Below, piece after piece: positions 9,889 through 41,146 of a DNA stretch of 41,835 bases. A model generated the notes under the pieces. The model saw only the letters and a list, made by a program, of their open reading frames with translations. It had not been told where the DNA came from and did no database searches. A program made the position numbers and the translations under genes. Within the stretch, counting starts at the first letter, position 1; every line of letters starts with the position of its first letter. This stretch comes from Aurantiacibacter aquimixticola (GTDB lineage Bacteria; Pseudomonadota; Alphaproteobacteria; Sphingomonadales; Sphingomonadaceae): assembly GCF_003605475.1 (NCBI RefSeq), contig NZ_RAHX01000002.1:1-41835 (forward strand), read 5' to 3'.

Positions 9889-10005
9889 CCTTTGTTGATG
9901 CGGGCCATTCGGCGCTGCAAGCACTCCCGCATCCCTCGATAATCGGCATGATTGTTCCGCTCTCCTGCAAGGGCTGAGCGGGCCGTGCGATCAGGACCAT
10001 ATTCC

Positions 10006-12962: not shown

Positions 12963-12992
12963 AACAAAAGACCATCCTTGCTATTCAGCGGT

Positions 12993-13766
12993 TTAACGCC
13001 GTGCAGAAACCAGGAATGCCATATCCCAGACGATTGTTCCGCCGACGGCTCGCCGCTCGTGTTCGATCTGTTCGGCAAGGCGGTCCGGATCGACGGCATC
13101 GCGATCTACGATGCCTTGTTCCGCCATGCGCGGTAGCATCAGCCGGGCCAGCTGCGGGATGAAACTGGGATCGTTTTCCTGCAGGAGTATCGCCTCGCTC
13201 GTTATCTGTTCCGGCGCAAGCCCGCATTCCCGCAGGATACCTTCCAGACGCAGGCCGAGCCGGTCATCTCCGCCCTCCGCCACTATCGTATCCCAAACCC
13301 AATTGTGGATTAGGCGATGGACGGGAAGGTCGCTCAGTCCGCGAGGCAGCCCGGCCCTTGCATGCTCCTGAAACCCGAGCACGCCGCCTCCCCTTGTCAT
13401 CTCGCGCAAGCGAGACAGCACGTCTTTTACGTTCGGCAAATACATCAGCACACGGCGACCAACGACCGCATCGAAGGTGCCGAGTTCGGACAACGCGGTG
13501 GACAGGTCGGCAAGGCGGTACTCGATGTTCGCTACCGATCTATCCACCGCCTTGCTTCGCGCCATTGCCAGCGCCGTCTCGCTTCGATCAATCGCAATGA
13601 TTTCGCCATCAAGTCCCGTGAGTGCGGCGACAAACCGGCTCAGCTCGCCATCTCCGCAGCCGACATCGAGCACTCTCATACCCGGCCCGATACCGACACT
13701 TCCGAAAAACCTCTCGCTCGGCGCATTGGCAGGATTGGCAACAGCGTTCGCATTCGAATGAGACAT
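12993..13766 (-). CDS. Class I SAM-dependent methyltransferase
   Basis: A 257-residue methyltransferase. Motif I is VLDVGCGDGE at residues 32-41. The acidic end of strand 2 is IIAIDRS, motif II is RLADLSTALSELGTFDAVVGRRVLMYL, and motif III follows at GGGVLGFQE. The core resembles the UbiE/Methyltransf_11-type fold, with a C-terminal helical lid of about 100 residues. The acceptor is unknown. It lies 76 bp downstream of the second TonB receptor on the same strand and may be the last gene of the PepSY - small membrane protein - receptor operon. It converges with the Tat DJ-1 gene, with 30 bp between stops. Confidence 0.85.
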   Translation of the reverse strand: MSHSNANAVANPANAPSERFFGSVGIGPGMRVLDVGCGDGELSRFVAALTGLDGEIIAIDRSETALAMARSKAVDRSVANIEYRLADLSTALSELGTFDAVVGRRVLMYLPNVKDVLSRLREMTRGGGVLGFQEHARAGLPRGLSDLPVHRLIHNWVWDTIVAEGGDDRLGLRLEGILRECGLAPEQITSEAILLQENDPSFIPQLARLMLPRMAEQGIVDRDAVDPDRLAEQIEHERRAVGGTIVWDMAFLVSARR

Positions 13767-13842
13767 TGTTACGTAATAGATCTGTCGCGGATAAGCACAA
13801 GATAGCTGATGACCACGAACATTCGATGCTCGGCATCTGCGC

Positions 13843-15951: not shown

Positions 15952-15970
15952 CAGATAACTTTCAGATTTT

Positions 15971-16195
15971 TCAAGGAATTCTTGAACGAACAAAAGCGGT
16001 GACGATCACGCACGGCACCGCGCCCAACAGTAGCCAGGATACCATGTCGCGCACGCCATCACCGGTCAGGCCGAGCAGCAACCCCGCCAGCGTCATCACC
16101 GCGATCAGAAGCGGGCTGGCAAAAACGCGCACGGCGGAGCGGCGTTGCGAGAGGCGTGGGCGGGCCCGTCTCGTAGGGGCGATAGCGGCTGTCAC
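15971..16195 (-). CDS. Small two-helix membrane protein of the receptor operon
   Basis: A 74-residue protein with a basic N-terminus (PTRRARPRLSQRRSAVRV) and two hydrophobic helices, PLLIAVMTLAGLLLGL and MVSWLLLGAVPCVIVTAF. Its start overlaps the stop of the PepSY gene by 4 bp, and it ends 19 bp before the TonB receptor start. Small proteins like this are common between PepSY and TonB genes in sphingomonads and are usually left unnamed. A helper role for the reductase is inferred from position only. Confidence 0.75.
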   Translation of the reverse strand: MTAAIAPTRRARPRLSQRRSAVRVFASPLLIAVMTLAGLLLGLTGDGVRDMVSWLLLGAVPCVIVTAFVRSRIP

Positions 16196-17376
16196 GCTGG
16201 TTTTCCTGCGACCGATCGCCCAACAGAACGGTCATCCGAAGCGCCCGCCGTGATCGCATCCACGCGGCGTTCGACATAACCGGGGCGGCGGCGCAGCCAC
16301 AGCATGATGCCGGTCCACAGCACCCAGATCGTAGCCAGCGTCAACAAGGCCCAGATAATCTTGAGCGGCAAGCCGCCATAATCCCCGAAATGCAACGGCT
16401 TCGACATCATCAGCGCCTGGTTGAGCGGCGGCATGTCGCGCGCGGTGGTCAGCTCTGCCGTCTGCGCATCGATCAGCGCAGGTGTCAGTAAATGCTGCGT
16501 CAGCGGCGTGTCGCCCTGGAAAAAGATCGCATAGTGATGAGGCGAACTCCAGTCGCCACCGGGAAACCCGATGAATTGCGGTGAGCGCCCCGGCAGCGCT
16601 ATGTGTGCAGCCGCCATCGCCGCATCGAGCGAGCCATAATCTGCCGGATCCAATGGTGCATCGTCCGCATATTCCGCCGTCATCGCCGCCAGTTCGCCAT
16701 CGCGCCAGCTATCCGTCAGCGGGTCGGCGAAGGCGTTGATTGCGCCGGTCAGGCCGATCACCAAGGCCCACGCCAGCACAACCATGCCAAGGAAATTATG
16801 CTGGTCGAGCCGGGCAACGCGCTTGTTGGCGGACCCACGCAGCGTGCCGAACCGCAGCCGCCGCATGAACGGCGCATAGAGCACCGTGCCCGATATGAGC
16901 GCCACCACGAAACTCAGCCCCATCACGCCGAGAAACAGCATGCCTGGTAAGCCCAGCAGCAAATCTGTGTGCAAATCCAGAATGAATTGCATGACTCCGC
17001 CCGTGGGCGCTGGACCCAGCGGCGCACCCGTGGCGCGGTCGAAATACAGCAAAGTCATCTCGCCAACATCGGCATCCGGCGCAGGGCCGGTTGTAACAGT
17101 CAAGAGCGAGCTATCCTGGCTGAACGCCATGAACAAGGGAACATCACCCGGCTGTTGCCGCAGCGCCCGCGCCAACATGGCATCGAGCGGGAGCCCTGTT
17201 TCAGCCGACGTTTCAGCGGACAACGATGCGCTATAGCCCTGCTCCGCAAAAGCATCGATCTCATCATGAAAAATCAGCGGCAGGCCCGTGCTGCACAGCA
17301 TCAACAAGAACAGCGTGGGCACGAGGCTGCTCCATTTATGAACGAGGTACCAGCTACGGATCGTATTGCGAGTCAC
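16192..17376 (-). CDS. PepSY-associated transmembrane protein (ferric-reductase-like)
   Basis: A 394-residue inner-membrane protein of the PepSY-TM family. The first helix carries the family pattern WYLVHKWSSLVPTLFLLMLCSTGLPLIF with His in HKW. Helices near 150-180 include LDLHTDLLLGLPGMLFLG, followed by DQHNFLGM and a final pair around IIWALLTLATIWVLWTGIMLWL. The recurring His residues (HKW, DLHTDL, DQHN) are those proposed as haem ligands. A large periplasmic loop lies between. Relatives reduce ferric siderophores after TonB-dependent uptake. It opens a leftward operon with a small membrane protein and a TonB receptor. Confidence 0.87.
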   Translation of the reverse strand: MTRNTIRSWYLVHKWSSLVPTLFLLMLCSTGLPLIFHDEIDAFAEQGYSASLSAETSAETGLPLDAMLARALRQQPGDVPLFMAFSQDSSLLTVTTGPAPDADVGEMTLLYFDRATGAPLGPAPTGGVMQFILDLHTDLLLGLPGMLFLGVMGLSFVVALISGTVLYAPFMRRLRFGTLRGSANKRVARLDQHNFLGMVVLAWALVIGLTGAINAFADPLTDSWRDGELAAMTAEYADDAPLDPADYGSLDAAMAAAHIALPGRSPQFIGFPGGDWSSPHHYAIFFQGDTPLTQHLLTPALIDAQTAELTTARDMPPLNQALMMSKPLHFGDYGGLPLKIIWALLTLATIWVLWTGIMLWLRRRPGYVERRVDAITAGASDDRSVGRSVAGKPA

Positions 17377-18794: not shown

Positions 18795-19017
18795 TTCTTC
18801 CGACCAAACATATTTCGCAGGACGAGGCGCTGATCGGCGTCGGCGCCTCGCTTCTTGCGCATCTCAGTATGCCCATGACCGTTCCGGTCTTTGGGAACGA
18901 TTGCGCACGGAACCGAACGTTGGGACCTTCGAGCGGTTTGTGCTGGCGTCGAACCTCCTCTATCTGATCGGCGCCATCGAGATCCGGGACGGCCTTGTCG
19001 TCAGAACCACCTCATGA
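18791..19017 (+). pseudogene. ABC-3C middle component 6, broken by a 1-base deletion
   Basis: From ATG 18791 the frame encodes MILPTKHISQDEALIGVGAS and continues to codon 31 (GTT, 18881-18883). The next frame then continues the family sequence, SGLWERLRTEPNVGTFERF and LLYLIGAIEIRDG, to TGA at 19015-19017. Adding one T between 18883 and 18884 (GTTCC to GTTTCC) gives a 75-residue protein that matches middle component 6 over its whole length. As written, the first frame ends early after an unrelated tail. It overlaps the HNH gene at its start and the ATPase at its end (ATGA twice), so loss of frame should also hurt ATPase translation. It is either a natural knock-out of the system or a sequence error. 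Confidence 0.82.
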
Positions 19018-20759
19018 TCAAAGCTGTTCGCGCCAACCGGAAAGGCTTCCACACCGCTCTCCTGCAGTCGGGGGTCAATCTTATCCTGGCAGACCGATCC
19101 ACCTCGGCTGGTGATAAGGACACAACGACCGCCTTGGGCAAATCGACCCTCATCGAGATCATCGATTTCTGCCTAGGCAGCAATACTTCTCCTGGGAAAG
19201 GGCTTCGCATCGACGCTTTGCAGGGTTGGGCATTCACGCTGGAGCTCTCCCTGTCCGGCTGTGATGTCACTGTGACGCGAGCGACCGATACACCCGGATT
19301 TTTCACAATCGAAGGAGCTACCGACGATTGGCCTGTCCGGCCGACGCCGAACAAGGAAGGCGTTCCGGGTCTCGACGCCAAGAAATGGCGAGCCGTTCTC
19401 GCATGGGCGTTATTTGGTCTCAGCGACCTGTCGGCGGAATCAGGATACAAGCCCTCGGCGCGGTCGCTGCTTTCCTATTTCGTGCGTGACCAAACAGCCG
19501 CCTATAACACCCCTTTCAAGCACTTCGACAACCAGAAGACGTGGAATATTCAGGTCCACAATGCTTTCCTTCTCGGCTTGAATTGGGAGAAAGCCGCGAC
19601 CTGGCAGCAGCTCAAAGATCAAAAGAACGCGCTCGCTGCTCTCAAGCAGGCGATCAAAACAGGAGCCGTCGATGGCGAGCTAGCGTCACTCGGTGAACTC
19701 GAAGCCGAACGCTTGCGCCTCACAACTCAACTTGAGCATGAACGCGAGGCTTTGTCGAATTTTCGGGTTCTCCCCCAGTATCGTGAAATCGAGAATCAGG
19801 CGAACTTCCTGACCAGCGAGATCCACGGCTTGGTCAACGCCAATGTCGTCGATAAACGCCGGCTTGATCGCTACCGCGACTCGTTAGTGAGCGAAGACGC
19901 TCCGACGGAAGATCGGCTGGAAGCCCTATACGGCGAGGCGGGTATCGCCCTGCCTGGCGCCGTCAAGAAGACACTGGAGGATGCGCGGGCATTCAATGCC
20001 CAGATTATCGCAAATCGCCGTCAGTTCATCGCTGGCGAGGTTGCCGCGCTCGAAGCTGCCGTCAGTGAGCGCGAGTCTGCCGTCGCAATCCTAACGGATC
20101 GCCGGGCCGACTACCTCAGCGCGCTTGCAGGTCAAGGCGCACTGGAAGAATTGACTCAATTGCAGGAGCTGCATTCGGCCACCAGGCTGAAGATCGACGA
20201 ACTGACCAATAGGATCACCCAGCTTCGCCAGATGACCACGAAGGCCGACACGATTAAAGTCGAGACTGTCGAGCTAAAGCGCGCGACAACGATCGACTAT
20301 GAAGAGCGGCGTGCGCTGTGGTCACAGGCACTCAGTCTCTTTTCGGAATTCTCGGAGAATCTCTATAAATCGCCCGGTCGCCTGGTCATCGATATTGATG
20401 ACACCGGCTACAAATTCGATGTCGAGATCGCGGGCAGCCCGAGCGAGGGCATCAGCAAAATGAAAATCTTTTGCTACGATCTCATGCTGATCTCGTTCGC
20501 GCGCCAGCGTGGTCTCGGAATCGACTTCCTGATCCACGATAGCACGATTTTCGACGGGGTTGACCCGCGGCAGCGCGCGCATGCACTGGAACTTGCCGCC
20601 GCAATGGCGGAAAAACATGGATTCCAGTACATCTGCACCCTCAACTCAGACATGGTGCCTGCGGGTGACTTCACTTCAGGCTTTGAATACGAGAGCCTCG
20701 TCCGCCTCCGGCTCACCGACACTGATCCGAGCGGAAGCCTCCTCGGGTTCCGTTATTAA
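19014..20759 (+). CDS. ABC-3C ATPase with C-terminal DUF2326
   Basis: A 581-residue SMC/RecN-like ATPase. The Walker A is LGKSTLIEIIDFCLG (GKS at 42-44), preceded by a long insert, DRSTSAGDKDTTT, typical of this family. A coiled coil runs from about 205 to 460 (ELEAERLRLTTQLEHEREAL and similar heptads). The C-terminal DUF2326 region includes KIFCYDLMLISFARQRGLGIDFLIHDSTIFDGVD, quoted here as two adjoining motifs (the KIFCYDLMLISFA helix and the IDFLIHDS Walker-B-like strand). Start 19014 is set by ATGA overlap with the middle component. Such ATPases are predicted to sense nucleoprotein structures and gate the HNH effector. This protein appears intact. Confidence 0.85.
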   Translation: MIKAVRANRKGFHTALLQSGVNLILADRSTSAGDKDTTTALGKSTLIEIIDFCLGSNTSPGKGLRIDALQGWAFTLELSLSGCDVTVTRATDTPGFFTIEGATDDWPVRPTPNKEGVPGLDAKKWRAVLAWALFGLSDLSAESGYKPSARSLLSYFVRDQTAAYNTPFKHFDNQKTWNIQVHNAFLLGLNWEKAATWQQLKDQKNALAALKQAIKTGAVDGELASLGELEAERLRLTTQLEHEREALSNFRVLPQYREIENQANFLTSEIHGLVNANVVDKRRLDRYRDSLVSEDAPTEDRLEALYGEAGIALPGAVKKTLEDARAFNAQIIANRRQFIAGEVAALEAAVSERESAVAILTDRRADYLSALAGQGALEELTQLQELHSATRLKIDELTNRITQLRQMTTKADTIKVETVELKRATTIDYEERRALWSQALSLFSEFSENLYKSPGRLVIDIDDTGYKFDVEIAGSPSEGISKMKIFCYDLMLISFARQRGLGIDFLIHDSTIFDGVDPRQRAHALELAAAMAEKHGFQYICTLNSDMVPAGDFTSGFEYESLVRLRLTDTDPSGSLLGFRY

Positions 20760-31202: not shown

Positions 31203-34055
31203 ATGCGCAACCATTCCTTATTTGTGTCCCTGATCGCATTGGCGGTCGGCATGACAGTTTCACCCGGCTCGGCCAAATCCCAGGAAACAGTCGCCGAACA
31301 GCCGGCATCGCCGTGCGGTATACCGGAATGGAATGTGGGTTCCCCCGATTTCGAGGCGGACTTGGCCGTGGTGTTCGGCAGGCTGCCCAACGGCATGCGC
31401 TATGCGATCCGCCGCAACACGACACCGCCCGGCGAGGCGGTCATCCGCTTCAACGTCCAGGTCGGCGGCCGGGACGAAACCGATGCAGAGCACGGGGCTG
31501 CGCATTTTGTTGAACATATGGCTTTCAACGGATCGACGAACATTCCCGAAGGCGAATTGCTGCCCATGCTCGAACGGCTCGGCCTTGCGTTCGGCGCGGA
31601 TACGAATGCTGAGACATCGCTGGACTACACCACCTACAAACTCGGTCTGCCCAATACCGATGAGGAAACGGTCAATACCGCGTTCATGGTCATGCGCGAG
31701 ATGGCGGGCAACCTGACGTTCGATCCAGCGGCGGTCGAGCGGGAGCGCGGCGTCATCCTTCGTGAAGCGCAGGACCGCAACGATGCCAACCGGCGCCGGG
31801 CGGCAGATTATCTGCGAACAGCACTGCCCGGAACGCCGCTAGGCGAGCGGATCACCGCCGATGCCGAACGCATCCGCGAAATTTCGGCGCGGGATCTAAG
31901 AGGGTTTTACCAAGCCTATTATCGGCCAGATCGCGCGACACTCGTTGTGGTCGGCGATATTGATCCGGTAGTGATCGAGGCGAAGATCGAAGAGCTCTTC
32001 GCCGATTGGCAGGGTGAAGGCGAGCCACGAGCGCTCTACGCCGCTGCTGACATCAATCCGAGCGCGCCGGCATTCTCCAATTTCGTCGATCCGGCTACAC
32101 CGGAAATCGTCGAGATCCAGACGATCGAGGAATGGAGTCCGAGCGATAACACGGTTGCTAGCGCGCGGGATGAAGTGCTCCGCGCCATCGCCGGGGCGGT
32201 AATCGCCAACCGAATCAACGAACTCTCCCGCAGTGCGGACTCACCGACCCTTGGCGGGCAAGTGACCGAGCAGCCTCTGTTTCGCACCGCCATCGCATAT
32301 GGCCTCCTGATCGTGGCGAAGGACGGGCAGTGGCAACCGACCCTGGAACTGGCGGAACGCGAATTGCGACGCGCCGCTCGATACGGCTTCGCCCAGAGCG
32401 AAGTTGACGAGATCAAGGCCGGTGTCGAAACCGCGCTGCGCAACGCCGCCGCGCAGGCCGATGGACGCGACAGCGTCAGCCTCGCAGACGCCTTGATCAC
32501 CGCCAGCCTTACCGACGCGGTCGTCACAACGCCCGAGGTCGATCTCGCCTTCTATCAGCAGATCGCACCCACCATCACGGCGGAAACGACGAGCGAGGCT
32601 TTTGCCAAGGCTTTCGAGGATGGGCCGGATATCGTTCACCTGTCCACCAAAATACCGGTCGAAGGGGGAACGCAAGCCATCGCCGCCGTCCTTGCGGCGA
32701 GCGCCCAAGTCGCGGTCACACCTCCCGAAGAAGCCGAGACGGTCGCATTCGCCTATACCGATTGGGGCGAGCCGGGCACGATCGTCGCGGATGAGAGGAT
32801 CGAGGATCTCGGCATACGCACGATCCGGTTCGCGAACGGGCTGCAATTGAACCTCAAACGGACCGGGTTCGAACCGGGCAAGATCAACTTTACCATGCGT
32901 GTCGGGTCCGGATCCTCCGCCTTCCCATCGGACGTGCCGGGTCTTGCGCTGATGCTGCCCATCTTCGCAACCATCGATGGCTTCGAGGCGCATGGACCGG
33001 ACGAGTTGCGCCGTGCGCTCGCGGGCCGGCAAATCGAGCTGACATTGTCCGCGAACAATGCGGGGCTCGTATCGGAAGGCGCGACGACGCCGGACGACCT
33101 GCTTCTGCAAATGCAGCTTCTGGCGGCACGTTTGACAGCGACGGGCTATCGCGAGGAGACGCGAGGGCAACTGGTCGGGGTGGTGCCGCTCCTGGTCGAG
33201 AACCTGCGCGCTGCGCCGATCCAAGTTTGGAGTAATGCGTTCAACGCCGTGCTTAGCGGCGGGGACGCGCGCCTCGGCGTTGCCGATCCGGTCTCGCTCG
33301 GCAACCTGTCGCTCGACGATCTGCGGCAAGCGATCGAACCGCAACTGGCACAAGGAAGCGTGGCGCTGGGGCTCGTCGGCGATTTCGACGAGGACGCGGC
33401 CATCGAGGCGGTAGCGGCGACCCTTGGGACCCTGCCGGCGCGGCCCTCACGGGTCGAGGTCGGCAAACCGCCCCGTGCTGTGGCTTTCACAGGCGAGGCC
33501 GGTCCGATCGTCCTCACACATGCCGGGCAGGACGACCAAGGGGTTCTTTCGCTCAGCTGGCCTAGCGATGACGGGCAGGATCTGCCCGACGATCTGGCGC
33601 GCGACGTGCTTGCCAGTGTCTTCAATCTGCGCATGACCGAGATTCTGCGCGAGGAACTGAGCGCTGCCTACTCGCCTCAGGCGTTCAGCTTCTCGACCAC
33701 GACCTATGACGGGTTCGGCCATATCACGGCGTTGGTCACCACGCCGGCTGAGGATATGGACAGGATCGCCGAGATCATCGAGGAGATCGCCGGAGGCCTT
33801 ACGAGCGAGCCGGTGTCGGCCGACCTTCTGGAACGGGCGCGCAGCCCGATCCGCGAAGGGTTTGAACGGGCGGAGAACATTAACAGTGCCTGGACCGGTT
33901 TGGTTGCCATGGCGCAAAGTGACCCAGAAGAGCTTGATCGGCGGAGGCAGCGCTTGGACGCGCTGAACGCTCTTACTCCCCAGACACTCCAGCGCGTAGC
34001 CGCGCAATATCTCAGGGCTGGGCAGGCACGGCAGATACGGGTCGTTCCCGAATAG
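31203..34055 (+). CDS. Secreted M16-family zinc metalloprotease
   Basis: A 950-residue protein. Start 31203 gives a signal peptide, MRNHSLFVSLIALAVGMTVS, ending near GSAKS; the ORF extends back to 31050 without a signal. The inverted zinc motif HFVEH is at residues 101-105. The distal glutamate is in the ERERGVILREAQ helix about 75 residues later, as in pitrilysin-type enzymes. A second, non-catalytic M16 domain follows the HLSTKIPVEGG linker, with FANGLQLNLKRTGFEPG at its start. Both halves in one chain form the clamshell that degrades peptides in the periplasm. It stands beside the microcin exporter, convergent with it, so a role in peptide clearance is conceivable, but no operon link exists. 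Confidence 0.9.
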   Translation: MRNHSLFVSLIALAVGMTVSPGSAKSQETVAEQPASPCGIPEWNVGSPDFEADLAVVFGRLPNGMRYAIRRNTTPPGEAVIRFNVQVGGRDETDAEHGAAHFVEHMAFNGSTNIPEGELLPMLERLGLAFGADTNAETSLDYTTYKLGLPNTDEETVNTAFMVMREMAGNLTFDPAAVERERGVILREAQDRNDANRRRAADYLRTALPGTPLGERITADAERIREISARDLRGFYQAYYRPDRATLVVVGDIDPVVIEAKIEELFADWQGEGEPRALYAAADINPSAPAFSNFVDPATPEIVEIQTIEEWSPSDNTVASARDEVLRAIAGAVIANRINELSRSADSPTLGGQVTEQPLFRTAIAYGLLIVAKDGQWQPTLELAERELRRAARYGFAQSEVDEIKAGVETALRNAAAQADGRDSVSLADALITASLTDAVVTTPEVDLAFYQQIAPTITAETTSEAFAKAFEDGPDIVHLSTKIPVEGGTQAIAAVLAASAQVAVTPPEEAETVAFAYTDWGEPGTIVADERIEDLGIRTIRFANGLQLNLKRTGFEPGKINFTMRVGSGSSAFPSDVPGLALMLPIFATIDGFEAHGPDELRRALAGRQIELTLSANNAGLVSEGATTPDDLLLQMQLLAARLTATGYREETRGQLVGVVPLLVENLRAAPIQVWSNAFNAVLSGGDARLGVADPVSLGNLSLDDLRQAIEPQLAQGSVALGLVGDFDEDAAIEAVAATLGTLPARPSRVEVGKPPRAVAFTGEAGPIVLTHAGQDDQGVLSLSWPSDDGQDLPDDLARDVLASVFNLRMTEILREELSAAYSPQAFSFSTTTYDGFGHITALVTTPAEDMDRIAEIIEEIAGGLTSEPVSADLLERARSPIREGFERAENINSAWTGLVAMAQSDPEELDRRRQRLDALNALTPQTLQRVAAQYLRAGQARQIRVVPE

Positions 34056-34139
34056 ATGGGAATGGCGCATGGAAATCAAATCAGAGCGCAGCCGCCGGCC
34101 GATCGACTACACATCTTAAACTTGATCGCGAGAAAGTAA

Positions 34140-34286
34140 TGGACTCGAGGCCATTGGTGTGGTGACAAGCTGCGCGCGTTTCCATGCGACGTCCATACCG
34201 ACTGCCGCGAGCAGCTGATCGACGCGATCGCACTGCGGTCGGGCGGGCGGTTGACAGCGCTGGAGCGGCAGAATGCGGGCTTGTGA
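34140..34286 (+). pseudogene. Short coding remnant of unknown family
   Basis: A frame without a start codon reads GHWCGDKLRAFPCDVHTDCR and then EQLIDAIALRSGGRLTALER before TGA at 34284-34286. The amino-acid pattern and codon use look like real coding DNA, but no start or ribosome site exists. It may be the 3' end of a gene lost by deletion between the protease and exporter genes. The family is not recognised. Confidence 0.35.
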
Positions 34287-34329
34287 GCGATGGCCTAAGG
34301 CTGTGCCAAGACCCGTAGCGGCCATGGTT

Positions 34330-36447
34330 CTAGGTTTCTGACGGCTCCAACTGGGCCTTGTGTAACTGTCCGGCCGCCATCACCAGTATGCGCTCGGCCG
34401 CCTCGATGGTTTCCTTACGGTGGGCGATGATGATACGGGTAATTCCCATCGCCGATATGGCTTCATTGACCGCGCGCTCGTGATCGCTATCGAGATGTGC
34501 CGTGCCTTCATCCATCACGAGTATTCTGGGCTGGCGATAGAGAGCTCGGGCAAGCAGCACACGCTGTTTTTGTCCGCCCGACAGTGTCGATCCCATGTCG
34601 CCGACGAGGGTTTCATACTGCATCGGCATTTGTCCGATATCGCTGTGGATCGACGCGGCACTCGCTGCTCCTACTACACGTTCCATATCGACGCTTTCAT
34701 CGAACAGGGCGATATTGTCGGCAAGAGTCCCTGCAAACAGGCTGTCTTCCTGCAGTACTGCCGCAATCTGGCTGTGGAAGCTTTTGTATCCGAACCGATT
34801 GAGAGGAAGGCCATCTACCAGTACCTCGCCGCTTTCAGGTTCGACAAGACCGAGGAGAAGCTTCACGAGCGTGGACTTGCCGCCTCCCGATGGTCCCGTA
34901 ATGGCTACGAACTCGCCTTGTTCGACGGTCAGGTTCACACCTTCAAGAACAAGTGGGTCGCTTGGGGCATAGCGATAGAACACATCGCGCAGTTCAATAC
35001 GCCCTTTCAGTTCGGTTTCCCGATCCAGGCTGTCGCCAAAACTCCGGTCTTCTTCGGAAAGAGCAATGTCGGAGAGTCGTTCGAGGTGCAGACCAAGCAT
35101 CTTGAAGGCTATTGCTGTGTCAACAAGGGCCGCCGATTTCCCGATGAACTGGCCTTTGTAGGCCATATAGGCGAACACCATACCCACACTGAATCCGCTG
35201 CCCTCGATGACAAAACTGATGGCGAGGTAGATCGTGAGAATATTCTCCAGCCCAAAAATGAGGCCGTTGGCGGTTCCCTGCCAGATCCCGATACGCGCAA
35301 GACGGACGTCAGAATTGACAGCATCAGTGAGCTTGGTCTGCCATAATGCATGGCGCAGCGTTTCGCGACCGAACAGCCGCAACGTCGTCATGCCGCGCAG
35401 CGTCTCAATGAGCGTGGATTGTTCCTTGCCTCCCATGATGATCGATGCTTCCTGCGCCTCGCGCTCGAAAGAGAACGATACGGCGCGCACAATGCCGTAA
35501 AGAACGAAGGCCACTATCGCGATCGCGGCAAGGAGCGGGCTATACCAGAACATCAGAGCCAGCGTCAGCACCGCCATCAGTCCATCGACGATTGCCGACA
35601 CCGCGCCTTGGGTCAGCATTTCCTGTATGGGACCGACCGATTGGAAACGCGAAAGAATGTCGCCCGTATGGCGCTTCTCGAACCAATCGACAGGGAGCCG
35701 GAACAGACGGCGAGCTACGTTTGAGGCGAGGGTAAAGCCGAGCGTGGTCCCGGCAACCAGCAATACGAACGAGCGCAGCAACGCCGCTCCCGCATTGACC
35801 AGTGTGAACAACCCAAAACCGATCGCTAGGACGGCCAGCAGATCCAGATCCAAGGCCGGCAGGGCGTTATCGATGGCGACCTGCATATAGTAGGGAGACG
35901 CCAGCACATAAGCTTGCAGAACAAGAGTGAGCACGAGGATCTGCGCGATCGCACGCTTAAGTCCGGTCATGCGCCGCCAGAGCTGCGAAAGTTTCAACCG
36001 CTCACGATGCTTGCCGCCCTCGAAATCGTCGCTTGGTCGCAACTCCAGTGCAACGCCCGTGAAATGCTTGGACACTTCATCCATCGGCATATTGGTCGAA
36101 CGGCCATCGGGATTGTGAATGAGTGCCTTGTCGCTTCGGACATGCTCAAGCACCACGTAGTGGTTCATATCCCAATGCAGGATGCAGGGCGTATGGAGGT
36201 TCTTCAGCTCCTCAAGCGGCAGTTTGACCGCGCGTGGAGTCAGACCAATTTTGTCAGCAAGGCCGATAAGCGAGCGCAGGGGTGCCCCACGCAAGGATGG
36301 AGCGAAGCGGCGACGCAGTGTGCCGAGGTCAATGTCGAGGCCGTGATAATTGGCGACCATTGCGAGGGAAGCGAGGCCGCATTCGGCGATCTCGGTCTGG
36401 CGCACCAAGCGCACCCGCGAACGGGTAAAGAACCCCAGATCAAGCAT
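34330..36447 (-). CDS. Peptidase-containing ABC exporter (CvaB/RaxB type)
   Basis: A 705-residue transporter. Residues 1-135 are a C39 peptidase: Q17 (oxyanion), catalytic C23 in TEIAECGLAS, and H96 in NHYVVLE. The third position is N112 in IHNPDG, where CvaB-like enzymes carry Asp; Asn is tolerated in papain-like triads. Six transmembrane helices span about 160-450. The ABC domain has Walker A GPSGGGKST, signature LSGGQKQR and Walker B ILVMDEGTAHLD. Such proteins cut double-glycine leaders and export the peptide. It follows the HlyD-like gene after 9 bp. The matching substrate is the double-glycine peptide at 37882. Confidence 0.93.
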   Translation of the reverse strand: MLDLGFFTRSRVRLVRQTEIAECGLASLAMVANYHGLDIDLGTLRRRFAPSLRGAPLRSLIGLADKIGLTPRAVKLPLEELKNLHTPCILHWDMNHYVVLEHVRSDKALIHNPDGRSTNMPMDEVSKHFTGVALELRPSDDFEGGKHRERLKLSQLWRRMTGLKRAIAQILVLTLVLQAYVLASPYYMQVAIDNALPALDLDLLAVLAIGFGLFTLVNAGAALLRSFVLLVAGTTLGFTLASNVARRLFRLPVDWFEKRHTGDILSRFQSVGPIQEMLTQGAVSAIVDGLMAVLTLALMFWYSPLLAAIAIVAFVLYGIVRAVSFSFEREAQEASIIMGGKEQSTLIETLRGMTTLRLFGRETLRHALWQTKLTDAVNSDVRLARIGIWQGTANGLIFGLENILTIYLAISFVIEGSGFSVGMVFAYMAYKGQFIGKSAALVDTAIAFKMLGLHLERLSDIALSEEDRSFGDSLDRETELKGRIELRDVFYRYAPSDPLVLEGVNLTVEQGEFVAITGPSGGGKSTLVKLLLGLVEPESGEVLVDGLPLNRFGYKSFHSQIAAVLQEDSLFAGTLADNIALFDESVDMERVVGAASAASIHSDIGQMPMQYETLVGDMGSTLSGGQKQRVLLARALYRQPRILVMDEGTAHLDSDHERAVNEAISAMGITRIIIAHRKETIEAAERILVMAAGQLHKAQLEPSET

Positions 36448-36456
36448 GATATCTCC

Positions 36457-37683
36457 CTATCGCCGTCTTACGGCATAGAGAGGTTCGAACAGCCATTCGA
36501 GCAGCGATTGCTTTTCCGTGACGATCCGTGCCGAGAGCGTCATGCCCGAAACGAGAGGCTCGCTTCGACCAAAAGCAGTAACCGCAGCGGAATCCAGTTT
36601 CACGCGAACAGGATAGACCGATACGATTTCGCCATTCGCACCCTGCTGGCTGAGCGCGCTTTCGGCTACGGTAAGAACTTCGCCCTTAATCGTGCCGAAC
36701 CGTTGATACGGGAACGCGTCAATCGCGAGGCTCACTTCCTGTCCCTCTTCTACGAAGCCAATGGCCGAGCTGGGCACGGCCAGTTCGGCTTGCAATTCTG
36801 CACCTGTGGGAATGATCGTCATGAGCGGAGTTTGTGAATTGGCAGGTTGCCCGACGCGAGCAGTTAAAGCCGTCACTGTGCCGGCGATTGGTGCACGAAT
36901 CGCATAGGAGCGGGAGCCTTCCGCGCTCGCTGCTTGTTGTCCTACCTGAGCGCGTGCAGCGGCGAGATCTGCGGATTGCGCCCGGGCCTGCGCCGCTATC
37001 AATGCCGATGAGCGCACCGATTCAATCAAGGTCGCGCCTTTCGCCGAAAGGCTCTGGTTGAGTTGAGACAATCCTTGCTGACGGGCGAGCAATGTTTCTT
37101 CGCGAACTTGTAGGTCACGTTGACTGATGAAACCCCGTTCGGCGACTTCCTGTGCGCGTCTGAGGTCGGCTTGAGCAGTCTCGATCAAGTCTTGCTGAAT
37201 TTTGATTTGGGACTGGATTTGACTAATTTCCGAGCGCAAACCTGCTTGTTGCGCGGTAAGCTGGCTTTGTTGTGCCGAAGCGGCTGCACTGGCCGCATCC
37301 ATCTGTGAGGCAAGGCTTGCATCCTGACGGGCTATTGCCTGTTCGATTTGCTCTGCAGAAGAAAGGTCCTGTCCACTATCTTCTTCCGTACGGATCTGCG
37401 CCAAAAGATCGCCCGCTTTTACGCGCTGCCCTTCCATAACAGCCAGTTCGACTACGGTGCCTGGCCGTGTGGGTAGGAGAGCGGAAACCCCTTTGTCTGG
37501 GGTGACCGTGCCAGATGCGGTTTCAACGCGGGAATAGTTGGCCAATGATAAAAAAATCACTGCACAAACCAAACCGGAAAGCAGCAACATTCCAATTGTT
37601 TGCCACGAAACTGGAATCGCAACCGCGCTCGCGCCTTCTAAGTTGCTTTGGTGAATACCCTTGTTCACCTGACTCCTGAACAT
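36457..37683 (-). CDS. HlyD/CvaA-type membrane fusion protein
   Basis: A 408-residue periplasmic adaptor. A single N-terminal transmembrane helix (WQTIGMLLLSGLVCAVIFLSL) is followed by a lipoyl half-motif, GTVVELAVMEGQRVKAGDLL. A long Gln/Ala-rich coiled-coil hairpin (about 105-250) comes next, then the second lipoyl half, IRAPIAGTVTALTARVGQ, and the beta-barrel LAVPSSAIGFVEEGQEVSL. This is the order of CvaA/RaxA-like adaptors that join a peptidase-ABC exporter to an outer-membrane channel. No TolC gene is in the plasmid, so a chromosomal one must be used. AAAGG lies 6 bp before the ATG. It is divergent from the peptide gene, with 198 bp between starts. Confidence 0.92.
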   Translation of the reverse strand: MFRSQVNKGIHQSNLEGASAVAIPVSWQTIGMLLLSGLVCAVIFLSLANYSRVETASGTVTPDKGVSALLPTRPGTVVELAVMEGQRVKAGDLLAQIRTEEDSGQDLSSAEQIEQAIARQDASLASQMDAASAAASAQQSQLTAQQAGLRSEISQIQSQIKIQQDLIETAQADLRRAQEVAERGFISQRDLQVREETLLARQQGLSQLNQSLSAKGATLIESVRSSALIAAQARAQSADLAAARAQVGQQAASAEGSRSYAIRAPIAGTVTALTARVGQPANSQTPLMTIIPTGAELQAELAVPSSAIGFVEEGQEVSLAIDAFPYQRFGTIKGEVLTVAESALSQQGANGEIVSVYPVRVKLDSAAVTAFGRSEPLVSGMTLSARIVTEKQSLLEWLFEPLYAVRRR

Positions 37684-37822
37684 CAGCTACCTTTCCATTC
37701 CGGGTTTCAAACTGGGCTATTGAGAAGCCCTCAACCAAGGGCTCTTTGTCTGGTCTGATTTGATGCGCAGCACCGTTGGATTGTTTGACTGAGGACTACG
37801 ATATAGCCTTGCTAATGGATAA

Positions 37823-37858
37823 AATGGAATCCATTCTTCGCTAGCCGAATCATTCGGC
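37823..37858. promoter_or_regulatory. Two palindromes between exporter and microcin genes
   Basis: AATGGA-A-TCCATT (37823-37835) and GCCGAAT-C-ATTCGGC (37844-37858) are perfect inverted repeats 21-22 bp apart centre to centre, two helical turns. They lie 24-59 bp before the peptide start in the divergent promoter region. This layout fits a dimeric repressor or activator that controls both directions. No regulator gene is adjacent. Confidence 0.55.
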
Positions 37859-37881
37859 CACCTAAATTGGAGTTTTTTGAA

Positions 37882-38169
37882 ATGGCTATCCAAGAGCTTT
37901 CTAATTTTGAGATCGCGTATGTTGCAGGTGGCAACGGTCAAAATTCGTCGGGCAGCAATTCAAGCTCCGGCGGAAGCAACCCGTTCGCGGTAGCCGCAGT
38001 TGGTATGGCCGCTGCCTCGACAGCCGCTCGAGCACTGGCGCTGGTTCCGACGCCAGCTACACCCGCTCTCGCCGCTTTCTCGGTTGTTACCGGTGCGCTG
38101 GCGATCGGATTCGGAGCGGCGGCCACGTCTACTTCAGGTTCTTCCTCTAGCGGATCAGGTAAGAAATAG
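37882..38169 (+). CDS. Double-glycine leader peptide: candidate novel microcin
   Basis: A 95-residue precursor. Leader MAIQELSNFEIAYVAGG fits the colicin V-type pattern (ELS/T-x-x-E-x-x-x-V-x-GG), with cleavage after residue 17. The 78-residue mature peptide has a Ser/Asn/Gly head (NGQNSSGSNSSSGG), a hydrophobic Ala/Val-rich middle with a central PTPATP break (two helix-length segments), and a Ser/Gly tail STSGSSSSGSGKK. Class II microcins share the hydrophobic core, and the IIb subgroup has a Ser-rich end that carries a siderophore; the KK ending here differs. TTGGAG precedes the ATG. The C39 exporter and adaptor lie divergently, and a small membrane protein follows after 11 bp. No known microcin sequence is recognised. 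Confidence 0.8.
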   Translation: MAIQELSNFEIAYVAGGNGQNSSGSNSSSGGSNPFAVAAVGMAAASTAARALALVPTPATPALAAFSVVTGALAIGFGAAATSTSGSSSSGSGKK

Positions 38170-38180
38170 GATCGTCAGAA

Positions 38181-38390
38181 GTGAATAGTCGTAAACGAAA
38201 ACTGCTTTCGATCACCTTGGCAGCCATATTGACGATATGCGTTATTGCGGCCGCGTCGATCATGGTGCCGGTAATGTTGAAAGCCGTCTTTTCGAGTACT
38301 TCAAGCCTTCTTGTTATCGGTTTAGGATTTCTCGCACTCTGGTTAATGCTAGATGCGGTCCAGATCGTCCTTCTCCGTAAAAAGTCCTAA
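38181..38390 (+). CDS. Small two-helix membrane protein, candidate immunity protein
   Basis: A 69-residue protein with a GTG start. The basic N-terminus NSRKRKLL is followed by two transmembrane helices, ITLAAILTICVIAAASIMVPV and LLVIGLGFLALWLMLDAVQIV, and a short basic end LLRKKS. It starts 11 bp after the microcin gene and ends just before a terminator. Known class II microcin immunity proteins are likewise small, basic, two- or three-helix inner-membrane proteins co-transcribed with the toxin. The assignment rests on position and topology; the sequence matches no family I know. Confidence 0.7.
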   Translation: MNSRKRKLLSITLAAILTICVIAAASIMVPVMLKAVFSSTSSLLVIGLGFLALWLMLDAVQIVLLRKKS

Positions 38391-38409
38391 TTGAGGTTAC
38401 GGTGCGAAG

Positions 38410-38444
38410 GGGCTTCGCTGCTTGCGGCGAAGCCCTTTCATTTT
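38410..38444 (+). terminator. Rho-independent terminator of the microcin operon
   Basis: GGGCTTCGC (38410-38418) pairs perfectly with GCGAAGCCC (38427-38435), followed by TTTCATTTT. It begins 20 bp after the candidate immunity gene stop and is the clearest intrinsic terminator in the plasmid. Confidence 0.85.
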
Positions 38445-38974
38445 ACGCGGATCAGTCACTCGTAATGACGTGACGCACAGCCTTCCTTCACGAGCAATTC
38501 AAGTCTGGCCTGAAGTGCACTGCTACCCAACGTCGGACCACACGGGTCTGGAGTTTCTCACATTGGTGAGGTGCGGTGAGCTTATCTGACCGAGTGAGTT
38601 TGCAAGTGTCACCGGGGAGTATTCCCGATCGTGCTATGCGGTCTCTCTTCGTTGTGATGTCTACGCCACGCCTTCAGCAGCTTCGCCTTCGCCCGTCGCT
38701 TCGGGGTCTCGTTGCGGAGCTGAAGGCCCAACTCCCTAAAAAGTCGCTAAACCATCTTCAGGCTCACGACCCAGCCATCGCGACGAAGCATATAACATAC
38801 CCACCTGTAGCCATAAGATATTCGATAAACTCTGTAGCTCAATCGTCGCTTCGTGCAGATTTGTTCGACGCAAGTACAAATATGATGTCAAAACCGAACG
38901 GTTTTGACACCTAATCCACAGCCACGCTTTTCCGCGCCATTGCGAGTGTCACAACCCCGTGTCAAAGAGATCGG
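38445..38974. other. Intergenic region between microcin and restriction operons
   Basis: About 530 bp. A 112-residue open frame on the plus strand (38576-38914) has no motif, ribosome site or coding bias and is not called. The main structure is the recombinase-type inverted repeat at 38886. Partial copies of its half (TGTCACAACC at about 38947 and GTGTCAAAG at about 38959) lie closer to the recombinase gene. Confidence 0.5.
38886..38909. promoter_or_regulatory. Inverted repeat, probable serine-recombinase crossover or operator site
   Basis: TGTCAAAACCG-AA-CGGTTTTGACA is a perfect 11-bp inverted repeat with a 2-bp centre, 66 bp before the recombinase start. Serine recombinases bind inverted 12-bp halves around a 2-bp crossover, and TTTTGACA-type halves are usual for this group. 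Partial halves follow at about 38947 and 38959, as accessory sites would. It could equally be the autoregulatory site of the operon. Confidence 0.65.
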
Positions 38975-39547
38975 GTGCAAATCGGCTACGCCAGAGTGTC
39001 CCGAGGGGACTCCCAGGACCTGGACCCGCAGCTCCGCGCGCTAACCGACGCGGGCTGTTCGATTATCTACCAAGAAGAGGCATCGGGCGCGAAATCCGAC
39101 CGCCCCGAGCTGGCGCTGGCGATCGAGGCGTTGAAGCCCGGCGACGTTCTGACCGTGTGGAAGCTGGACCGCCTGTCCCGTTCGCTCCGCGACCTCCTGT
39201 TCACGCTGGAGGCGATCACGGAAGCCGAGGCCGGGTTCCGGTCGCTGACCGAGGCGGTCGATACCACCACGCCAGCGGGACGGTTGATGACGCAGACCCT
39301 TGGCGCGTTCGCCGAGTTCGAGCGCGCCATGATCCGCGAGCGGACCATGAACGGCCTGGCGCACGCCCGTAAGGCAGGCAAACATATCGGCCGCAAGCGC
39401 GCCCTCTCCCCCCAGCAGCGCGCCGAGATCATCGAGAAGGCCGAGAACGGGCAAGGCTCCCCCGCCCAGCTCGCCTCGCTGTTCCGCGTGTCGCGATCGA
39501 CCGTGCAGCGTGTGTTGCGCGAGCATCGGGCGAAGATGGCGAGCTGA
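38975..39547 (+). CDS. Serine recombinase (resolvase/invertase)
   Basis: A 190-residue small serine recombinase. The N-terminal catalytic domain has QIGYARVSRGDSQDLDPQL (nucleophile Ser in RVS), then LDRLSRSLRDLL and a TPAGRLMTQTLGAFAEFERAM helix with RERT. A C-terminal HTH follows: GSPAQLASLFRVSRSTVQRVL. GTG 38975 is the natural start; an overlapping frame from 38959 is a shadow. Its TGA overlaps the ATG of the vsr gene (TGATG), so it is the first gene of the restriction-modification operon. It may resolve plasmid multimers, or have moved the operon, using the inverted repeat at 38886. Coupling a recombinase to a restriction operon by overlapping codons is unusual. Confidence 0.92.
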   Translation: MQIGYARVSRGDSQDLDPQLRALTDAGCSIIYQEEASGAKSDRPELALAIEALKPGDVLTVWKLDRLSRSLRDLLFTLEAITEAEAGFRSLTEAVDTTTPAGRLMTQTLGAFAEFERAMIRERTMNGLAHARKAGKHIGRKRALSPQQRAEIIEKAENGQGSPAQLASLFRVSRSTVQRVLREHRAKMAS

Positions 39548-39987
39548 TGGTGGACACCCTCACCGCCGTAGCGCGATCGGAGCGCATGAGCCGGGTTCGC
39601 GCCAAGGACACGAAGCCCGAAATGATCGTGCGGCGCTTGGTTCATGGCATGGGCTATCGCTATCGCCTGCACGATCGCAGGCTTCCCGGCAGCCCCGACC
39701 TTGTGTTCCGGGGTCGTCGAAAAGTCATTTTCGTGCATGGTTGCTTCTGGCACCGGCATCCGGACCCATCATGCAAGCTGGCGCGGATGCCCAAGTCGCG
39801 CCAGGACTTCTGGGTACCAAAACTGGAGGGCAATCGCGAGCGCGACGAGCGCAACCGCGTAGCGCTCGATCGCGAGGGATGGCGACAAATGGTTGTCTGG
39901 GAATGCGAATGCCGCCATGAAGAACAATTGAGGAACAAATTGCGAGATTTCTTGGAGGACGACAATGCCGGACATGCGCGCCATTGA
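39547..39987 (+). CDS. vsr: Very short patch repair endonuclease
   Basis: A 146-residue Vsr nuclease. It shows SERMSRVRAKDTKPEMIVRRL, YRYRLHDRRLPGSPDLVF (with the catalytic Asp in SPD), FVHGCFWHRHPDPSCKLA with zinc Cys/His residues, PKSRQDFW, and WECEC near the end. Vsr nicks beside T in T:G mismatches made by deamination of 5-methylcytosine, so it protects the recognition site of its partner methylase. The gene overlaps the methyltransferase start by 23 bp and the recombinase stop by 1 bp. Presence of Vsr supports the view that the adjacent methylase makes 5-methylcytosine. Confidence 0.95.
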   Translation: MVDTLTAVARSERMSRVRAKDTKPEMIVRRLVHGMGYRYRLHDRRLPGSPDLVFRGRRKVIFVHGCFWHRHPDPSCKLARMPKSRQDFWVPKLEGNRERDERNRVALDREGWRQMVVWECECRHEEQLRNKLRDFLEDDNAGHARH

Positions 39988-41146
39988 GCTATTCGCCGGT
40001 GCGGGCGGCCTAGGCATGGGCATCAGCAAGGCGGGATTCCATCCGGCGCGTATCGTCGAGTGGGACCGGTGGTGCTGCGACACGATACGCGAGAACCGCC
40101 GCGCCAAGGCGGGCGGTATCGGCCGCTGGCCCGACCCGATCGAGGGCGACATTCGCCAGATCGATTTCCGGGGGCACGAGGGCAAGATCGACCTGGTGAG
40201 CGGCGGCCCCCCCTGTCAGCCCTTCTCGCTAGGTGGCAAGCATCGCGCACACGCCGACACGCGCGACATGTGGCCAGAGGCGGTCCGCGTCGTGCGGGAG
40301 ACCCGTCCCAAGGCGTTCGTGTTCGAGAACGTGAAGGGGCTGACCCGCGCGAGCTTCGCGACTTATCTCGCCCATATCGTCCACCAGCTCACCTATCCGG
40401 AGCTGACGCCCCAGCCCGGCGAGGCTTGGATCGATCACATGGAGCGCCTTGAGCGCCATCATACCGCCAGGGGCGGCCGAGACGGACTTCGCTACAATGT
40501 CGTGCACCGAGTGCTGAACGCCGCCAACCACGGCGTTCCCCAGCGCCGCGAGCGCGTGGTGTTCGTTGGCTTCCGGGCCGACCTGGGCATCGAGTGGAGT
40601 TTTCCCGACGAGACGCATTCGATCGAAGCGCTGCTATGGGAGCAGGTGCGATCGGGCGAGTATTGGGAGCGCCACCGGGTCGCTTCGCGCGACCGCGTGC
40701 TCGACCCTCGCCACGTGGCGCGCGCCAAGAAGATGACCGAACGACCCGAGACCGCGGCTTGGCGCACGGTTCGGGACGCGATCGGCGACTTGCCCGATCC
40801 TGAGACCGCGCCCAAGCAGGCGGCGCTATGCCTCAATCACCGGTTCCAGGCGGGCGCGCGCAGCTATATCGGCCATACGGGCAGCCCGATGGACGAACCC
40901 GCCAAGACCTTGAAGGCGGGCGTCCACGGCGTTCCGGGCGGCGAGAACATGTTGCGCCGCGCCGATGGCAGCGTGCGCTATTTCAGCGTGCGCGAGAGCG
41001 CCCGCCTCCAGACCTTTCCCGACGACTATCGCTTTCATGGATCGTGGACGGAATCGATGCGCCAGCTCGGCAACGCCGTTCCCGTCCAGCTCGCCGAGGT
41101 CATCGCGCGCAATGTCTCGCACGAGCTAAGGGCGGTGGCTGGATGA
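39965..41146 (+). CDS. C5-cytosine DNA methyltransferase of the restriction system
   Basis: A 393-residue DNA methylase. Motif I is IELFAGAGGLGMG, motif IV GGPPCQPFS with catalytic C84, motif VI FVFENVKGL, and motif VIII VPQRRERVVFVG. The variable target region spans about 200-310. Motif IX is SVRESARLQTFPDDY and motif X QLGNAVPVQLAEVIA. It transfers methyl from SAM to cytosine C5 in the target sequence to protect it. By pairing with an Eco29kI-like nuclease the site may be CCGCGG, but this is homology only; CCGCGG occurs in this plasmid (for example at 941 and 1610), so it must be methylated if so. Its TGA overlaps the nuclease ATG. Confidence 0.95.
   Translation: MPDMRAIELFAGAGGLGMGISKAGFHPARIVEWDRWCCDTIRENRRAKAGGIGRWPDPIEGDIRQIDFRGHEGKIDLVSGGPPCQPFSLGGKHRAHADTRDMWPEAVRVVRETRPKAFVFENVKGLTRASFATYLAHIVHQLTYPELTPQPGEAWIDHMERLERHHTARGGRDGLRYNVVHRVLNAANHGVPQRRERVVFVGFRADLGIEWSFPDETHSIEALLWEQVRSGEYWERHRVASRDRVLDPRHVARAKKMTERPETAAWRTVRDAIGDLPDPETAPKQAALCLNHRFQAGARSYIGHTGSPMDEPAKTLKAGVHGVPGGENMLRRADGSVRYFSVRESARLQTFPDDYRFHGSWTESMRQLGNAVPVQLAEVIARNVSHELRAVAG

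Follow-up and report, generated by a model that had tools for sequence, protein, structure and literature searches.

A candidate class II microcin-like bacteriocin module on a plasmid of Aurantiacibacter aquimixticola, with a C39 exporter that has asparagine at the catalytic aspartate position

Described systems of this build and the plasmid module

Class II microcin systems consist of five components, and the leader of the precursor ends in GG or GA (PMC9746304). One proven system is found on plasmid pLQ510 of Moraxella catarrhalis, where exporter, adaptor and precursor are all required, killing being lost on knockout of mcbA, mcbB or mcbC, and the small protein encoded by mcbI gives immunity; McbC activity was not found in the culture supernatant, and apart from the leader the small proteins showed hardly any resemblance, or none, to known proteins (PMC2761928). 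In the Cdz system of Caulobacter crescentus the exporter operon is divergent from the toxin-immunity operon (PMC5380434). The exporter CvaB uses a triad of Cys32, His105 and Asp121, and the substitution D121N abolishes colicin V secretion (PMC3335142), while for the peptidase LahT the leader residues -4, -7 and -12 are important (PMC6363468). Class IIb microcins have a C-terminus rich in Gly and Ser and carry a siderophore that is linked through the C-terminal serine (PMC10233263). Bacteriocin clusters have been predicted earlier in Alphaproteobacteria, apparently including Erythrobacter, so that the mere presence of such a cluster is not new (PMC6374434). A description of the particular kind of bacteriocin considered below was not found in the one open literature collection searched, which is a thin basis.

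The window, that is, the whole stretch of 41,835 b under analysis, is the complete second contig of a 2.55-Mb genome assembled in two contigs. Its ParA, ParB and RepA genes resemble those of sphingomonad plasmids; the best record, from Qipengyuania citrea, covers 24% of the query at 79.6%. A sequence-only reading had placed a C39 exporter, an HlyD adaptor, a divergent 95-aa precursor and a 69-aa protein on this contig, and open reading frames together with domain matches found all four in the same positions. The features are as follows:

31203-34055, plus strand: M16 (insulinase-type) peptidase, a possible but unproven associate, convergent with the exporter operon (domain match)
34330-36447, minus strand: C39-peptidase ABC exporter (PCAT), 705 aa (domain matches)
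36457-37683, minus strand: HlyD-family membrane fusion protein, 408 aa (domain match)
37684-37881, no strand: divergent promoter region with operator-like inverted repeats (repeat and promoter scans)
37882-38169, plus strand: precursor ORF, 95 aa (ORF and leader score)
37882-37932, plus strand: double-glycine leader, 17 aa, with L-12, E-8, I-7, V-4 and GG
37933-38169, plus strand: mature peptide, 78 aa plus stop, with a Ser/Gly head, two hydrophobic stretches around PTPATP and a Ser/Gly tail ending in KK
38181-38390, plus strand: two-helix membrane protein, 69 aa, candidate immunity protein (hydropathy, AlphaFold model)
38406-38439, plus strand: hairpin with an interrupted T run after it, probably terminating the precursor-immunity operon (folding)

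The exporter matches the domains Peptidase_C39 (E 6.6e-31), ABC_membrane (8.3e-34) and ABC_tran (1.8e-31), and the adaptor matches HlyD_3 (7.6e-22). A match of the ABC protein to mad3 in PADLOC is best over residues 602-691 and was set aside, as it most likely reflects the shared ATPase domain. With the pLQ510 system (L135) the module has in common a plasmid-borne HlyD protein and C39 exporter, a short double-glycine precursor that is otherwise of unfamiliar sequence, and a coupled small immunity protein, which is 74 aa there and a candidate here; the exporter is 42% identical to McbB over 687 aa and the HlyD protein 30% identical. The mcbABCI genes form a single co-directional transcript, whereas the present layout is divergent, and the precursors of the two systems do not align. 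The resemblance to Cdz, drawn by description, comprises the alphaproteobacterial host, the divergent layout, a leader ending in small residues, a small membrane protein and a polar C-terminus; Cdz differs in having two toxins rather than one, a glycine zipper that is missing here, and an immunity protein with three predicted membrane helices as against two in our candidate (PMC5380434). The MccV-type class II microcins of Enterobacterales, likewise set beside the module by description, show the same five-part build and a core of 60-90 aa, a range that includes the present 78 aa, but here the host is alphaproteobacterial, the core is an orphan and the third triad residue is Asn (PMC10233263, PMC9746304). 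The statement that microcins of this class are described mainly in enterobacteria is right for the name microcin; working systems of the same build, however, are known from Moraxella and Caulobacter (PMC2761928, PMC5380434).

Exporter, adaptor, precursor and membrane protein stand together, as had been proposed, but the TolC homologue that scores over the cut-off (277.8 bits) is chromosomal, and the module is therefore not fully self-contained. Palindromes had been noticed between the divergent genes, and inverted repeats do lie at 37726-37743, 37814-37835 and 37844-37858. Six repeat pairs were counted, overlapping counts included, and as many occur in only 0.15% of 2000 Markov shuffles; a single 7-bp pair alone is reached in 10.6%. 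No match to a sigma-70 type promoter was found in 33900-38900, where shuffles give 3.0. The terminator that the sequence-only reading called strong corresponds to a hairpin of -28.1 kcal/mol (z -2.2), but the terminator scan does not list it because the T run is too broken for the rule of the scan. The GC3 values of the two small ORFs (0.52 and 0.54) and of the HlyD gene (0.54) lie below those of ten of the eleven larger plasmid genes (0.66-0.87), which would fit recently acquired cargo in the case of the small ORFs. Their codon usage is weak evidence and by itself cannot prove them, with 68 and 87 of 1000 random synonymous versions scoring as high.

The M16 peptidase on the far side of the exporter has a start that by eye looks like a signal peptide. 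M16 genes also adjoin the exporter in L113 (12045-14885), in L045 (9687-12413; the same contig as L104) and in L074 (2943-5516), where it immediately precedes the ABC gene on the same strand and comes after the leader-peptide genes. Besides the present locus the search set contains 66 distinct exporter loci, some with short flanks, of which these are 3; each of ten genomes holds 4 to 7 M16 domain matches; membership of the peptidase in the system is suggestive only. Proteins of 215 aa that are 52% identical to each other adjoin the exporter and the M16 gene in L113 (11379-12026) and L045 (8973-9620). The L113 copy has no Pfam or NCBIfam match; by eye these proteins resemble a 2-oxoglutarate Fe(II) oxygenase, and they are possibly peptide-modifying enzymes.

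The precursor and the adjoining membrane protein

The precursor begins with an ATG that follows GGAG at a distance of 9 nt, and its leader reads MAIQELSNFEIAYVAGG. Leaders were scored with a matrix derived from 53 leaders of 19 related loci, excluding the contig itself. On this scale the precursor leader reaches 21.2, where relatives range from 14.9 to 31.9, the runner-up among 423 contig ORFs scores 5.3, and the maximum over 20 shuffled contigs is 6.9. The double-glycine leader seen in the letters is thereby upheld, and its fit to the exporter clade is far above chance. The criteria of the scan were G[GAS] and a hydrophobic residue at both -4 and -7; the leaders retained for the matrix additionally had D/E at -8 and V/I/L at -4. 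The 53 leaders therefore show these features partly by construction. A leader profile, which contains the leader of the precursor itself, finds one place in the whole genome at E<=10, and that place is the precursor.

The mature peptide has a calculated mass of 7,015.6, is rich in Ser, Gly and Ala and ends in the tail STSGSSSSGSGKK. Counting with what we take to be the strict zipper pattern, no glycine zipper is found in the precursor (0 motifs); prolines interrupt its core, which holds three loose small-xxx-small motifs, as many as are reached by 93% of shuffles. The AlphaFold model of the precursor is of low confidence (pLDDT 54.4), and the two helices it places at 34-54 and 60-81, flanking PTPATP, are only suggestive. 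Measured against the description of Cdz-like proteins in PMC5380434, the length of 95 aa lies within 60-151, the leader is of the type G[G/A/S] and the C-terminus is short and charged or polar; with 0 strict motifs, we do not class the precursor as a Cdz-like glycine-zipper protein. The traits that mark class II microcins are present in the form of a GG-leader precursor, a nearby C39 ABC exporter, an HlyD protein and a chromosomal TolC, but the Cys/His/Asp triad used as a filter by the cinful pipeline is not, as Asn occupies the aligned Asp position.

Searches for relatives were carried out at several levels. Against 5.8 billion protein sequences, in a search of limited sensitivity toward low-complexity sequence, the 95-aa precursor gave 349 candidates and the 69-aa protein 2, none of them at E<=10. 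The precursor found nothing among plasmids by tblastn, and the small proteins gave weak matches among PDB sequences (best E 0.024). Of 397 genomes of the family, 94 matched the precursor at E<=0.05, own genome included, with a best other E of 8.3e-5. Four of these matches (L116, L119, L125, L129) were inspected and rejected as homologues, as none carries the leader of the precursor, and the best of them, L116, sits inside another, larger protein; the remaining ones we read as composition matches. The protein, plasmid and family-genome searches thus returned no homologue at all, and hence none standing apart from an exporter. When tblastn is run without composition correction, the mature part matches peptides of related loci at E about 3e-5 to 1e-4; after shuffling of the mature part alone, z is 2.3 for L038, 0.35 for L112, 0.04 for L086 and -0.86 for L039. 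For the L112, L086 and L039 peptides the likeness is no better than that of shuffles and was not taken as evidence of common descent. The likeness of the precursor to those of its relatives sits mainly in the leader, with L038 excepted at z 2.3.

The gene of the 69-aa protein starts with GTG, 11 nt past the precursor stop. Hydropathy gives two hydrophobic stretches, and an AlphaFold model from the single sequence gives a two-helix pair with a mean pLDDT of 73.8, in agreement with the two-helix membrane protein that had been described from the letters. With a length within the 51-216 aa of class II immunity proteins, which are usually membrane proteins, a place beside the precursor and two predicted helices, it is a candidate immunity protein. 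Neither the function of the mature peptide nor that of the 69-aa protein rests on sequence, because no homologue was found.

An exporter clade with asparagine in the C39 site

The C39 domain of the exporter has Cys23 and His96, with Asn112 at the usual place of the catalytic Asp and Asp114 two residues on (codons 112-114, 36106-36114, minus strand). The position was set by alignment to McbB, to its relatives and to solved C39 domains, and Asn112 lies 16 residues beyond the His, the same spacing as in CvaB. McbB has Asp there. The solved PCAT/LahT-type C39 peptidases (6mpz, 4ry2) belong to the same domain family and their Cys and His align, but their third residue is Asp, where the present exporter has Asn and then an acidic residue two positions further on.

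Within one clade (support 95/95), each of the 26 members compared, own exporter included, has Asn at the triad position, as against Asp in 35 of the 37 other rows compared, McbB included. L046 and L076 have Asn too, though outside the clade, and were excluded from the 26-versus-35 comparison, in which 26/26 clade members and 4/35 others have an acidic residue two positions after it. Since L046 and L076 lack the acid, a strict coupling of the two residues is doubtful. The tree calls for three label changes, not one; L076 sits on a very long branch, and L052, a partial match, was used in the residue comparison and is absent from the tree. The other loci with Asn and the acid are L037-L045, L087-L092, L094, L095, L098, L101, L103, L107, L108 and L112-L114, after removal of L093, L096, L097, L104 and L106 as same-contig duplicates, of L115 (like L110) and of the truncated L102, the visible part of which has Asn. 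The 26 members are not all independent, as L041, L042, L091 and L092 are near-identical.

How such a site would cut leaders is a puzzle, given that CvaB D121N is dead. Asn can be chemically sound in this place, as the papain-like peptidase superfamily has Asn, Gln, Asp or Glu there (PMC10318531), and yet it failed in CvaB. We consider that the enzyme seems to be maintained, since Cys23 and His96 are kept, Asn is clade-wide, and leader peptides lie beside the exporter at 20 of the 23 other clade loci with readable upstream flanks (25 other loci, less L108 and L114, which are cut upstream). These leader peptides were judged by eye, and implausible hits such as a TTG-started one in L045 were set aside; no leader peptide was accepted in L045, in L103 (1.1 kb of upstream sequence present) or in L113. 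A literature search on a thin basis found no published exporter with such an Asn. The cinful pipeline retains only exporters with Cys/His/Asp (PMC9746304) and, owing to this filter, would drop the Asn clade; microcin searches that filter on the triad may in this way miss a clade along with its candidate peptides. With a natural Asn in 26 exporters, it also becomes possible to test directly which residue of a leader peptidase steadies the histidine.

An HlyD search of 396 genomes of the order matched 82 at E<=1e-20, own genome included; the HlyD protein is 54-62% identical in nine other genomes of the order sample, and several Sphingomonadales genera have close exporters. A pattern-based scan of genome contigs from 84,980 species gave 29 loci, and none of the 74 viral contig stretches that matched a pattern encodes a relative. 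The order sample includes 13 further genomes of the genus, and all of them lack the close exporter, although one, G318, gives a 25% match; this is to be expected of a plasmid-borne trait. The nearest exporter (94%) belongs to L108, a Parerythrobacter metagenome genome, on a contig that begins inside the HlyD gene, before any cargo.

The cargo around close exporters differs widely, and we conclude that the exporter is kept while the cargo varies. In L112, the gene after a glycine-zipper precursor encodes 89 aa with three hydrophobic stretches. L038 carries two cassettes, one with a zipper precursor directly followed by a 64-aa membrane protein of two stretches, the other with a precursor and a 168-aa membrane protein of four stretches (weak PrsW match below cut-off, E 0.0044). 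The two are separated by a remnant of an HlyD gene (6137-6355), its first 73 codons, which is 78% identical to the HlyD of the same locus; recombination within the start of HlyD, exchanging cassettes, would likely have left such a scar. Strict zipper matches number 9 in L038, 13 in L112 and 26 in L039, the patterns overlapping and some being counted twice. Arrays of five to seven leader peptides, accompanied by a NarL/LuxR-type response regulator, lie upstream in L037, L039, L040, L098, L101, L102 and L107; some of the array peptides are zippers and some Pro-rich, and many are short, Pro-rich or Cys-containing and not toxin-like. A short peptide with a motif like EGPxGxGCTEP occurs in several array loci and in L043 and L044. 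On a Rhizobium plasmid (L086, exporter 65% identical), a zipper precursor and a 63-aa membrane protein of two stretches lie beside the exporter, the 63-aa gene overlapping the end of a 223-aa leader protein rather than standing directly 3' of the zipper gene. On a Sphingomonas parapaucimobilis plasmid (L085, 64% identical), a leader of this kind is missing from the annotated divergent ORF, and a leader peptide is about 3 kb away. Adjacent membrane ORFs were sought by hydropathy in 10 loci, plus L038, L086 and L109, and among the 10 they accompany a leader peptide in L112, L095 and L089.

We tentatively propose, as a broader idea that we would ourselves rate at clearly below even odds, that this Sphingomonadales exporter clade has rebuilt its C39 site from Asp-Pro-Ala to Asn-Pro-Asp/Glu and uses a papain-like Cys-His-Asn triad, or else an acid shifted by two residues. 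The clade would serve fast-changing leader peptides, some of which would be exchanged as cassettes together with the membrane proteins that partner them. The present plasmid would hold a pared-down one-toxin version, its orphan two-helix toxin being among those that a Cys/His/Asp-filtered pipeline would discard.

The bacteriocin reading and its alternatives

In our assessment, with a probability of roughly two in three, the module is a class II microcin-like bacteriocin with its immunity protein, leaving the cell via the chromosomal TolC. The C39 domain of the exporter would bind the 95-aa precursor by its leader, docking possibly through L-12, I-7 and V-4 by analogy with described peptidases, and would cut after Gly-Gly. 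The 78-aa peptide could then pass, as in related systems, from the exporter through the HlyD adaptor and TolC to the outside, where its two hydrophobic stretches, joined by PTPATP, may lodge in the inner membrane of related competitors. The 69-aa protein, probably co-transcribed with the precursor, would sit in the inner membrane of the producer and block self-killing, as immunity proteins do elsewhere. This is the best-supported reading in view of the exporter-type leader, the adjacent exporter, the coupled small membrane protein and the 42% identity to the proven pLQ510 exporter, and the direct succession of zipper precursor and small membrane protein in L112 and L038, with the 63-aa protein beside the exporter of L086, speaks for it as well. 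Against it stand the orphan small proteins, the weak codon evidence and the Asn in place of the catalytic Asp, as do the non-toxin-like arrays with their NarL-type regulator, the leaderless divergent ORF of L085 and the placement of the 63-aa gene in L086. The microcin call of the sequence-only reading is likely right in the broad sense of a microcin-like bacteriocin, without the siderophore link. Apart from its orphan toxin, the module adds a further well-formed case to a widespread kind; if it kills, it would be a mobile bacteriocin with toxin and immunity proteins outside any family found in the searches.

Killing could also be contact-dependent, the same export route delivering a peptide that is retained and aggregated on the producer surface as in Cdz. 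This sub-case of the bacteriocin reading has a modest chance: the divergence of exporter and toxin-immunity genes is the same as in cdz (PMC5380434), McbC activity was not found in the supernatant (PMC2761928), the composition is rich in Ser, Gly and Ala, and the L038, L112 and L039 precursors do have strict zipper matches. The present precursor, however, lacks the strict motif, has loose ones only at the level of shuffles and a core broken by prolines. We give a similarly modest chance to the peptide being secreted without being toxic, as a signal, matrix or surface component, with the 69-aa protein acting as part of a sensor or as an export helper. Related exporters do have arrays to serve, in which five to seven different leader peptides are accompanied by a NarL-type response regulator, and many array peptides have by eye no evident membrane-protein partner, but the present locus holds a single hydrophobic leader peptide with a two-helix neighbour and no such regulator alongside, which is the bacteriocin pattern, and an orphan mature sequence would suit fast-diversifying toxins better than conserved signals.

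That the locus is decayed or spurious, its small ORFs unexpressed or the peptidase dead through Asn112, seems quite improbable. The weak codon evidence and the inactivity of CvaB D121N (PMC3335142) would be in line with it; the leader score far above chance, the conserved Cys23 and His96, the presence of Asn112 in 26/26 clade exporters (95/95) and the leader peptides at 20/23 other readable loci all argue the opposite. Least credible of all, with hardly any weight in our estimate, is a microcin of class IIb that carries a siderophore and enters its target by way of TonB receptors, at which the Ser/Gly-rich tail had seemed to hint. The HlyC acyltransferase family includes the siderophore-microcin enzyme, and one chromosomal gene matches it (G000:C1:1347885-1348229, E 1.2e-11), away from the plasmid locus. 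The plasmid, by contrast, has no gene of the HlyC family, other modification genes having been sought by eye in its ORF list, and the tail ends in KK, which goes against an attachment through a C-terminal serine (PMC10233263). The two TonB receptors named in the sequence-only reading were found on the plasmid by a domain scan.

The receptors and a PepSY protein lie at 9952-17376, a region that probably serves iron uptake and has no relation to the peptide locus. At 18891-20759, a DUF2326 protein has a match just below the cut-off to a domain of an ABC-three-component system, and together with the preceding gene it forms a possible defence-type pair. Beyond the module, at 39547-41146, a Vsr mismatch endonuclease gene is followed by a gene that by eye resembles a DNA cytosine methyltransferase.
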